From NCBI GenBank assembly GCA_008011715.2, contig CP136508.1:3720001-3784000 (forward strand): 64,000 bases of DNA, given 5' to 3'. This document shows positions 13,170-16,640 of the stretch, in pieces (the first letter of the stretch is position 1; every line of letters starts with the position of its first letter). A program made the translations under genes and the position numbers. The notes below the pieces were generated by a model, which made no database searches, was not told where the DNA came from, and saw only the letters and a program-made list of their open reading frames with translations. Source of the DNA: [Empedobacter] haloabium (GTDB lineage Bacteria > Pseudomonadota > Gammaproteobacteria > Burkholderiales > Burkholderiaceae_D).

Positions 13170-13493
13170 TCGTGGCGGCGCGCCCCGGCCACCCACTGGC
13201 ATCCTGGCAGGCGCGGTATTGCTTTCGCCCGCCTGCTTTGGCCAGCAATCCAATGCCAAGGACGTCGATCTCCCAGCGGTCGGTTACAAGGCGGAGGTCA
13301 GGTCCGCCGTTTCGGCACCTGGCGCCCAGCTTTCGGCGGCCGAGGAAAGCTCGAGTGTGTCGCTCAAGCTCTCCAGTAAGCCCTATACAAGTGTTGCGCC
13401 CAGGATCGACCAGCCGGGATACGCCAGCTGGTTGACCTGGAGCCTGACCGCCGACGCGCCGCTGAAAAAAACCGAGGAGCGGCACGACCTGCT

Positions 13494-13498
13494 GCACC
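13494..13498. repeat. target-site duplication, left copy (GCACC)
   Basis: Five bases GCACC immediately outside the left end of the element. Five-base duplications fit Tn7, Tn5053 and Mu-type transposases. Confidence 0.85.
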
Positions 13499-13563
13499 TG
13501 TGGACAAACAATAAAGTCGGAGACAAAATAATATAGTTCGACACTCAACAATAAATTTTGACA
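13499..13563 (+). repeat. left end: terminal inverted repeat plus internal transposase-site-like repeats
   Basis: The terminal 20 bp are 13499-13518. AACAATAAA recurs at 13507 and 13547, with GACAAAATAATATAG at 13522 between them. GACA follows each AACAATAAA box. The arrangement of spaced, partly overlapping sites is that of Tn7-type ends rather than a simple insertion sequence. Confidence 0.75.
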
Positions 13564-13772
13564 CAAAAGGCCAAGGTGAACATGCTTGTAGACTTTCGCT
13601 TTCGGGAGAGGCCGCGTTTCGACAGTCGCATGTAAGCTGCATTCCGCTCACTTGCATAGCAAAAAAAGGATGTTTCGATTCATAAATGGCGCATCAAATA
13701 TAAGCACTCAGTTATCGCTATCGGCGCGGTGAGCCGTTTTTGATCAGTCGCACTATAAATCGAGGGCCAAAG

Positions 13773-14927
13773 ATGAAAATCAAAAATATGACGGAGTTTG
13801 GTATCGAAATTTCCGGGGGCTGCAAATTGACAGCTGCGATGGCGTTGGCAGGAGCACTGTCGGCTTTGTCAGGATGCGCGGGCAAGCATGTCATCCCCGA
13901 CAAGAACTATGTAACGAGCAGTGACGGTGCCATTAAGGTGGCGTTCGACCAGGACGGAAATATCTACCCAAGAACAATCGATGTTGAAGATTGGACTGCA
14001 CGCACTCACCCTTTTTATGAACCGGTTTTTGGCAGCGCGTTTCAGCTTGCTAAGCCGTACGTTCCGGCCGAGGGAAAATACGTTGAGCGCGGTCTACGTG
14101 CGGCGACATATGAGAAATTGGAACGAATGCTCAACACGTCCCTAAAAGACGATGGAACATTAATCATTCTGATTCACGGTTTTAACAACGATAATGAGGA
14201 AGCGAATGCGAATTTCTCGCTGATGAAGAGCTTCCTGGCACCATCGGTTCGCCAACGATCCGCAGTTCTAGAAGTATTCTGGGACGGATTGGAGGAACGT
14301 CGCGATTTCTACATCGCATCTCCTTTTAATTTCTGGCCCGATGCTCTTACCTATTCTAATTTGGCCGGCACGCACGGATTAAGAGAGTTGCTACGACGCG
14401 TGAAGAAAAACGTCGATGTTCGTGTCGTAACTCATTCGCGCGGGGTAGCAGTCATCATGGCTGCGTTGGCACAGCCCGTGTTTGGGGAAAGAATCGTTGG
14501 TGGGGATGACCCGCCGCTCAAGAATCCGCATATCAAATCGATGAAGATCGCATCGTTCGCACCTGCAATTGGCCCCGGCCACCTAGTAAGGGACATTAAT
14601 GAACAACTAATCCATCACCCAGTTGATTTGTTTCTGGGATTCAATCGCGGCGATATTATTACCGGAAAACTTTTTCTAGTGCCAGCAAGTTTTTGGGGCA
14701 CCACAACGCTGGGAAGCGACCTACCCTATGTGAAGCGAGTGATCGCCACTCCTCGGGACAATTTGAAAGTGCGCGCGTTTCAATTTCGCCACGGCGGACG
14801 ACATGACTTCCCCAGTTATGCAGGCGGCGTCAATGTTCCTGTCATCCGATGCATGTATTCGCTAATGGGAATCGGTGAGCCAGCACCCTGCGATAAGAAC
14901 GATGAGATCACGGCTACCACTGAGTAG
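13773..14927 (+). CDS. lipoprotein alpha/beta-hydrolase, cargo of the Tn7-type element
   Basis: 384 aa from ATG 13773 with GAGGG 7 nt upstream (an in-frame TTG at 13740 is less likely). A hydrophobic segment ends in the lipobox ALSGC (Cys 35), predicting an outer- or inner-membrane lipoprotein. LIILIHGFNND near residues 129-140 is the beta-strand/oxyanion loop of an alpha/beta-hydrolase, and THSRG near 219-223 is the nucleophile elbow, with Thr replacing the usual Gly. DUF900-like hydrolases are the closest pattern I know. It is the only gene inside the transposon and much AT-richer than the host genes. Substrate unknown; an accessory or toxin-like role is speculation. Confidence 0.8.
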   Translation: MKIKNMTEFGIEISGGCKLTAAMALAGALSALSGCAGKHVIPDKNYVTSSDGAIKVAFDQDGNIYPRTIDVEDWTARTHPFYEPVFGSAFQLAKPYVPAEGKYVERGLRAATYEKLERMLNTSLKDDGTLIILIHGFNNDNEEANANFSLMKSFLAPSVRQRSAVLEVFWDGLEERRDFYIASPFNFWPDALTYSNLAGTHGLRELLRRVKKNVDVRVVTHSRGVAVIMAALAQPVFGERIVGGDDPPLKNPHIKSMKIASFAPAIGPGHLVRDINEQLIHHPVDLFLGFNRGDIITGKLFLVPASFWGTTTLGSDLPYVKRVIATPRDNLKVRAFQFRHGGRHDFPSYAGGVNVPVIRCMYSLMGIGEPAPCDKNDEITATTE

Positions 14928-14962
14928 ACGAAGCCTGGTTGTTTCGGAGAACTGGCAGATTC

Positions 14963-15101
14963 TGTCAAACTTTGTTGCCGCGAATCGAGGACTTGCGTGA
15001 CTTCGAATGGCTTTTCTGTCAAATTTTGTTCGCAACCGCAGCGTGTCGAGACTGGCAAGCCCTATAGGTGGGGTTGTGTCACACTTTATTGTTAGTGCAC
15101 A
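14963..15101 (-). repeat. right end: spaced inverted copies of the same repeat
   Basis: TGTCAAACTTTGTT (14963), TGTCAAATTTTGTT (15017) and TGTCACACTTTATTGTT (15077) are spaced 54 and 60 bp apart, all in the orientation opposite to the left end. The terminal 20 bp are 15082-15101 and end in CACA. Confidence 0.75.
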
Positions 15102-15106
15102 GCACC
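15102..15106. repeat. target-site duplication, right copy (GCACC)
   Basis: GCACC directly follows the right end at 15101 and equals the left copy at 13494-13498. Confidence 0.85.
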
Positions 15107-15829
15107 AGGATGGCTGGGGAAACGCCACCTCGGTCGGCCTCAATACCGTCGGCTTTTTCACAGCGCAGTCGGCCAGGCATCGATCGGCGTCGGAGAAATA
15201 CTGCGCAATGGGTCAAGCGGCCCGATTCGAAACGGAAAAAGCCCGACTGCCGGCAGGGGCCAGCGAAGCGGAATTGAGGAAGACAATCGAGGCGGAAGGC
15301 TGCCTTGTCGATAACATCCGAAAATATGCTCCACATTTACTCGAGGCCGTTCGCGCGGCAAATGGCTACCCCCAGGCTGGCGGCTTCCTATCGGGAGTTT
15401 AGGGGGCAATGGAATTCCAGAACGCCAAATACTATACACCCGACACGCTGGCGAAACAGGAGGAAGATCACCGGCCCTGGTCGGTAGGGCTGACCGCCGG
15501 CTGGAATCCGCAACGCGCCGAAAAACTGTTCCTGCTGCTGCGCGCCGAGCACAAGCGCAGCTACGAGGACGCGGAGGAATAGACGCGCTGCCCGGTTGGC
15601 GGCACCGGTCCCACCGTCGTCTGCGTGACCGGATCGTTCGCGCCGCCTACTTTCTCGAAGAGTAACGTCGTTTCGTTCGAGACCCGCTACCTGTTCGACA
15701 AGGTCGCCATTGCCGCGCACCTGAAGCCGAAGGAGAAGGCCAAGGTGCCGTGGAGCGCGATCATCCGCGAAGCGGCGATCACGCAAGCCGCGCCGCTGCG
15801 TGTCGGTTGGGCTGGCAAGGCAGTGGCGT

Positions 15830-16640
15830 CACCAGCACGACGAATTATGCCGACGGCCACAGCCCGCAAATCGCGGTCAACAACACCCCGCACCTGCTCG
15901 GCGCAATCGGTGCGGTGGCGCTGATCGTCGCGTTCGCCCTGGCGGTCGGCGTGCATACCGACATCCTGCGCGATCGCTATCCGGAAGCTGCAAACGGTCG
16001 TCGCCAAGGCCCGCTTGCTGCGCCAGCAGCTGGGTCGCTTGTCGCTCGACGGCAAGCACAAGTTGCTCAGCGCGGCATATCCCGCCTATGCGCGTGGCCC
16101 GGATGGCGTCGATGACGCGTGCGGCAGCGCGGCCGATACCGCGCTGCGCGATCCGGCCAGCGCCAGGATGACGCCGGAACTGACGATCGGCTTGGCCGAG
16201 TCGGACATTTCATTCAGCCTGACGCGCATCCAGTTGTTCGCGTGGTTCCTGTTCGCTGTCTCCGCCGGCATCTATTTCTGGTTCCTGCTGGGCGAACTGC
16301 CCGCCATCGACAATTCCATACTCGGGCTGCTGGGCATCAGTGCGGGCGTCGCCGGCGTCTCGTGGGCTGTCGATGCCAGCGACAAGAACGCAGCGAAGCA
16401 GCCCAACGCCGGCTTGTCGAAGGGCTTGTTGTCGGACATGACCCGCAGCGCCGATGACAAGGAGGAAATCCATCGCTTCCAGGCGATCGTGGTCAACATC
16501 CTGCTGCTGGCGATCGGCGCCGTTCACGTCGTGCGCAGTATCTCCTATCCCACCTTCGACCCTACCTGGCTGATTTTCCTGACCATCAGCGGCGCAACGT
16601 TCGCTCTTGGCAAGCAGATCAACGAGAAGAAAGTAGGGGT
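15830..16640 (+). pseudogene. frameshifted multi-pass membrane protein remnant
   Basis: Two frames join into one protein: TNYADGHSPQIAVNN and HLLGAIGAVALIVAFALAVG in one frame, then from about 15980 LQTVVAKARLLRQQLGRLSL in another. Membrane segments follow at about 16225-16290 (QLFAWFLFAVSAGIYFWFLL), 16318-16365, 16488-16540 and 16565-16610. The frame continues without a stop past 16640 into antisense of the AraC gene, so the natural 3' end is missing. Function unknown. It may be the partner of, or part of, the interrupted gene upstream. Confidence 0.5.

Follow-up and report, generated by a model that had tools for sequence, protein, structure and literature searches.

How did a 1.6-kb segment with the ends of a Tn7-type transposon, and none of the genes that move one, come to interrupt a gene of [Empedobacter] haloabium? 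We addressed this question in a 64-kb stretch of its genome (the window), where the initial annotation had placed a complete Tn7-type mini-transposon at 13494-15106. The element lies inside that interval, but both copies of the target duplication had been counted in; the element proper spans 1,603 bp (13499-15101) and is present in one copy in its own genome. It is a Tn7-type element, as had been observed, and the ends, the duplication and an empty site in related genomes all support the mini-transposon reading. The locus is composed as follows.

13172 to 13498, plus strand: 5' portion of the host gene that the element interrupts (start set approximately, by eye; intact 367-aa ORF in congener G071)
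13494 to 13498, unstranded: left GCACC copy of the 5-bp target duplication (single copy in the empty sites of G071 and G028)
13499 to 13568, plus strand: right end (Tn7 convention), with a TGT tip and three overlapping TnsB-like sites in 20-bp steps
13569 to 13605, plus strand: subterminal stretch common to the G058b mini-element and the glmS-linked right end of G018
13773 to 14927, plus strand: sole cargo gene, encoding a DUF900 alpha/beta hydrolase of 384 aa whose N-terminus is of lipoprotein type
14962 to 15101, minus strand: left end, with a TGT tip and three spaced TnsB-like sites (15092, 15032 and 14978)
15102 to 15106, unstranded: right GCACC copy of the 5-bp target duplication
15102 to 15880, plus strand: 3' part of the host gene (end approximate; further decay relative to G071 by eye)

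Both ends begin with TGTG, and their first 20 bases match at 17 positions when counted by eye, exactly as first reported. The outer tips read TGT/ACA and carry inverted terminal TnsB-like sites, as do the ends of the Tn7 family. The predicted total of six TnsB-like sites also holds: three lie on the plus strand (13508, 13528 and 13548) and three on the minus strand (15092, 15032 and 14978). Their offsets are 0/20/40 at the right end, where the sites overlap, and 0/60/114 at the left end, where they are separated, which is the layout of the Tn7 family; the overlapping arrangement agrees with the proposed likeness of the end at 13499 to the Tn7 right end. The same right-end layout occurs in TnsABC-bearing elements, and about 107 bp of the window right end match both the G058b end and the glmS-linked G018 end. 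As a chance control, a site profile built from 20 sites of other elements was run over the 64 kb: it returned five hits of at least 15 bits, all within the element, and 0.03 such hits per 64 kb in simulated first-order Markov sequence (60 simulations). The middle left site (15032) is weak, scoring 16.8 bits with its own sequence in the training set and less than 12 with the profile from other elements, which at a cut-off of 12 gives one hit outside the element (34650).

The perfect 5-bp duplication had been read correctly: GCACC stands at 13494-13498 and again at 15102-15106. When the element and its flanks were searched against 148 genomes, its own included, the empty site with a single GCACC appeared in two (2/148), the congeners G071 and G028, as the initial annotation had anticipated for related strains. 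In both, the left-flank match (to 13498) and the right-flank match (from 15102) overlap by exactly 5 bp. A further genome, G038, carries parts of both flanks at about the empty-site distance, with a right-flank match that stops short of the junction. The protein of the uninterrupted gene (367 aa in G071) has no Pfam match. Because the host gene is cut and its 3' part has, by eye, decayed further, the insertion is not recent.

Beyond its one long ORF, the element leaves no space for another gene. A tblastn search with B. contaminans tns queries (E 1e-4) found no match between the ends: none of the TnsA, TnsB, TnsC and TniQ/TnsD genes of an autonomous Tn7-family transposon was detected in the element, and no transposase lies inside it, as claimed. 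No glmS was matched in the 64-kb window, so the element does not occupy the position about 25 bp behind that gene to which the TnsD pathway leads. The sole gene is, as first described, a lipoprotein-type hydrolase (PF05990, E 3.5e-6; lipobox and lipoprotein-type start read by eye), with no match in NCBIfam or PADLOC. It is rare: a search of 5.8 billion recovered 23 proteins, itself included. Homologues at 83% and 80% sit on contigs of 1,610 and 1,661 bp, close to the length of the element, and one homologue belongs to a Massilia. The hydrolase had no match in plasmids, and among 392 family genomes its only relative outside its own genome is that of G313 (49%), whose locus (2.9 kb, with one flank short) shows no TnsB-like sites. 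An alpha/beta hydrolase in a P. megapolitana element was considered as a further relative and rejected, as it is unrelated to the window hydrolase.

The ends have owners elsewhere. In B. contaminans, five plasmid records matched the right-end consensus, and in four the match lies at a gene annotated as TnsA; on the one plasmid examined, the right end is followed by tnsA, tnsB, tnsC and tniQ. The same end type adjoins tnsABC at three Paraburkholderia loci and one Janthinobacterium locus. TnsABC elements with this end type, for which the initial annotation had proposed to look, occur in other Burkholderiales. Sixteen right ends align over 70 columns with a mean identity of 84%, and right-end matches at E 1e-6 occur in 52 of 392 family genomes. 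Two tns-bearing, glmS-linked elements have both ends, which we paired by hand from their coordinates: one of 32.8 kb in G360, with 5-bp flanks ACTGT, and a large one of 26.9 kb in G150, with flanks GCTGC. The TnsB frame of G150 is split, and this genome holds a mini-element together with its tns-bearing one. Several tns-bearing relatives show a further short TniQ match behind tnsC. Among solved structures, the nearest to B. contaminans TnsB is Tn7 TnsB (289 bits), with CAST TnsB at 45 bits or less, and the window element itself contains neither a CAST-type TnsB nor Cas effector genes. In these comparisons, nothing points to the CRISPR-associated helper that had been suggested. For comparison, the TnsA-side end of an E. 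coli plasmid has three overlapping sites and weaker similarity.

Small cassettes with such ends also recur among the relatives. Pair-finding over 51 stretches yielded 13 two-ended elements, a list biased against autonomous ones by the 25-kb limit of the pair finder and the 20-kb length of most stretches. A tblastn search with TnsA, TnsB, TnsC and TniQ of B. contaminans (E 1e-4) gave no hit between the ends of any of the 13; as this is a single query set, it may have overlooked distant tns genes of the larger siblings. Exact 5-bp duplications flank ten of the 13, the exceptions being G058b, Robbsia and G464 (one base off). Seven are shorter than 4 kb and gene-bearing (the window element, G058b, G058c, G150m, G383, G321 and G021), and none of these seven lies directly behind glmS. 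Five of them (G058b, G058c, G150m, G383 and G321; 1.5-3.5 kb) share the short left-end spacing of the window element and carry unrelated cargo. The cargo of the six relatives is listed here.

G058b: epimerase-like, desaturase-like and ArsR-like genes (by eye)
G058c: three proteins tested, without Pfam match
G150m: zinc alcohol dehydrogenase and AraC regulator
G383: IS3-type transposase (by eye)
G321: one PIN-domain gene, in an element of 1,489 bp in all
G021: IS256-type transposase (by eye)

Two elements of 285 bp contain no sequence other than a right end and a left end: one in G087 (L037:1501-1785), with the duplication ATCGG, and one on Robbsia plasmid p3 (L001:15001-15285), without a duplication.

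The right ends of the mini-elements form no separate type; their left ends have a spacing of their own. All six small gene-bearing elements with a readable array have the second left-end site at 59-60 bp and the third, where called, at 112-114 bp. The corresponding distances in ten further left ends that could be read, those of autonomous elements among them, are 68-69 and 122-123 bp (G058a, G059, G034, G087, Robbsia, P. megapolitana, Janthinobacterium L164, G464, G360 and the large G150 element). Fisher's test of short spacing in 6/6 mini-elements versus 0/10 others gives p = 1.2e-4, or about 6e-4 by hand with the Polaromonas left end counted among the others (6/6 versus 1/11), neither being a clean probability because the elements are related. 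The count leaves out G021, whose left array could not be read, L165, in which no middle site was called, G015 and G333 (a single spacing of 53), and G039 and G020, whose arrays, labelled left by the script, are irregular right-end arrays by eye; Polaromonas was counted apart. Against a model built from the five other mini left ends, with the window excluded, the window left end scores 58.9 bits, followed by Polaromonas (37.4), Robbsia (37.0) and G464 (36.7). In a tree of 18 left ends, the six mini-elements and Polaromonas form one group (support 0.91). The Polaromonas plasmid locus is decayed; it has a spacing of 58/113 and adjoins a tnsD that an inserted transposase gene interrupts. Its short spacing and its tnsD suggest that an autonomous lineage with a short-spaced left end probably existed; an intact autonomous element with this spacing was not found. 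The mini left-end model, run with strict filters over 300 order-level genomes, returned only E. haloabium itself and G150, both training members. With the G383 left end as query, one plasmid matched (Polaromonas) and no phage record did. The right-end pattern had no match in viral contigs, and one viral-contig pattern hit (L206) was rejected as a chance match inside a gene.

We consider it about 80% probable that the window element is a non-autonomous Tn7-family mini-element, moved in trans by a TnsABC-related helper that has since been lost. Movement in trans, the identity of the helper and a target pathway other than TnsD are what we infer from the anatomy of these elements. TnsA and TnsB proteins related to those of the Paraburkholderia, Burkholderia and Janthinobacterium TnsABC elements would act in trans, binding three sites per end and pairing the ends; the 1.6-kb cassette would be excised and joined to its target at a 5-bp stagger. 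Choice of the site would fall to TnsC together with a target selector, and since the mini-elements lie away from glmS, this selector was probably not a glmS-reading TnsD. The helper may once have been encoded by an ancestral genome or by a visiting plasmid and would now be gone. The element would belong with the small cassettes whose left-end spacing is shorter than that of the glmS-linked elements. Several observations weigh against this reading: its single genomic copy, the apparent decay of the interrupted gene, which marks the insertion as old, the weak middle left site, the split TnsB frame of G150 and the failure to find an intact autonomous element with the short left-end spacing.

A helper at home, as the initial annotation had envisaged, finds no support. 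The genome (6.48 Mb, one contig) has no TnsA match, versus 66 of 294 family genomes that have one; 14 named control genomes are also without a match. Two of four first-look TnsB candidates were scored, and the sole TnsB match is an orphan of 590 aa, about 30% identical to B. contaminans TnsB.

L169:9153-10925 (G000:C1 about 5411198-5412868): TnsB-like orphan gene whose DDE site is degraded, without tns neighbours
L048:7119-13070 (G000:C1 about 3019119-3025070): DDE-like protein (709 aa), AAA ATPase and TniQ-like protein (998 aa)

Both loci are present in the genome, and either might be proposed as the mover. The orphan was aligned with two TnsB proteins from tns-bearing elements at catalytic positions that we take to be those of Tn7 TnsB: the second catalytic aspartate is missing in all four versions (its own and those of three congeners) and the first in two of the four. 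Its 20-kb neighbourhood contains no TnsA, TnsC or TniQ match and, by eye, a helicase-like and an oxidase-like gene. The protein looks domesticated and might bind Tn7-type ends. Some TnsB match, not necessarily this orphan, is found in 45 congeners (E. haloabium included), and 10 are listed without one. The cluster near 3.02 Mb contains the only TniQ match of the genome and is apparently a different, Tn7/Tn5053-type system: its DDE protein gave no BLASTP match to a matching-end TnsB. With the DDE site of the one degraded and the other unrelated, it is very improbable that either moved the element. Eight rve hits, in multi-copy frames of 318 and 383 aa, were judged to be IS-type and rejected. 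A Mu-transpos_C search was silent in this genome, which proves nothing, as it was likewise silent in every control genome.

The small form could also have arisen in different ways. A large Tn7-like element might have inserted here and lost its middle afterwards, so that the small form never moved; the single copy is compatible with this, but five small elements of the same left-end class lie elsewhere (two in G058 and one each in G150, G383 and G321), four of them with exact duplications, and we regard such a deletion as improbable. Alternatively, each small element could be an independent internal deletion of a larger autonomous element with a short-spaced left end, with no lasting lineage behind them. 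The decayed, tnsD-bearing Polaromonas locus, which groups with the mini left ends, would fit a parent of this kind, and the 285-bp elements without cargo resemble extreme deletion forms of the other (68-69 bp) type. However, the genes of the mini-elements are unrelated to one another, no tns match lies among them, and neither a further mini left-end match in the 300 order-level genomes (strict filters) nor an intact parent came to light. We hold this origin to be possible, if on balance doubtful; it is a variant of the trans-mobilization reading, with which its odds overlap. Within trans-mobilization, the mini-elements could go further and constitute a lasting, dedicated lineage of cassettes, hitch-hiking on TnsABC with a left-end geometry of their own, inserting away from glmS, swapping one to a few genes and shuttling cargo into and out of glmS islands, an extension that we think rather unlikely.

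The window element resembles Tn7, Tn6171 and Tn6552 in its TGT/ACA tips, in the overlap of TnsB sites at one end and their separation at the other, and in its 5-bp duplication. It differs from the Tn7 family in lacking tnsABCDE, in measuring 1.6 kb instead of tens of kb and in lying away from glmS; it has three overlapping right-end sites, whereas Tn7 and Tn6171 have four. The TnsABC-TniQ elements of Burkholderiales share the register and consensus of its right-end sites but encode tns genes, and those with a readable middle left site (L164, G360 and G150) have it at 68-69 bp, unlike the window element. Tn402-type class 1 integrons without tni genes are defective relatives of a TniABQ system, with another end family, another target preference and integron cargo. 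Tn6171 sits 25 bp behind glmS (PMC8190619, PMC11406308), as do the glmS-linked relatives described here, and Tn6552 lies away from glmS, yet bears tns genes. MITEs, TIMEs and mobile insertion cassettes are non-autonomous and mobilized in trans, some with passenger genes; the parents that the source names for them are IS elements or Tn3-type transposons, not TnsABC with a selector (PMC10969869). A survey of 6,549 Tn7-like transposons gives tnsB as a minimal requirement, which places tnsB-less elements outside it (PMC8649781). Among the matches listed, no literature title concerned natural non-autonomous or miniature Tn7-like elements. Each part of the window element is thus Tn7-like; what we have not seen described is a recurring set of tns-less Tn7-family cassettes with one to a few genes and their own left-end spacing. 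One review states that cargo-capture mechanisms probably remain undiscovered and that the spacing of TnsB sites is important for distinguishing the two ends (PMC11406308). Small cassettes whose left ends are spaced differently are relevant to both matters and make both testable.

A search of the same genome for further ends had also been proposed. It returned no second copy of the element and no TnsABC element, but it did reveal a second right end of this family at 6235968, roughly 25 bp past the stop codon of glmS.

L012:15124-18968 (G000:C1 behind glmS): glmS-linked Tn7-family right end at attTn7, with a defence operon

The genes that follow this end are assigned to ABC-three-component systems by Pfam and to Lamassu (LmuA, LmuB and LmuC) by PADLOC; no tns match was found there, and no left end within about 39 kb. 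Among the loci examined, 26 genomes carry such a right end at most 60 bp from the glmS stop codon, and in G336 it lies about 150 bp from glmS. A duplication search found no partner ends for G015, G018, G020 and G035. Two complete glmS-linked elements, of 8.4 kb in G059 (L080:11177-19531) and 20.1 kb in G058 (G058a; L070 and L071), are flanked by exact duplications and were not matched by any tns query. In G360, a right-end-like array of four overlapping sites (L184:14005-14369) lies 0.3 kb inside the left end of the glmS-linked, tns-bearing element and points in the same direction, so nested elements are possible at this locus. Finally, element ends stand back to back, a few bases apart, in G034 (L089:439-520) and G058 (L071:425-560), which suggests tandem insertion at one site.
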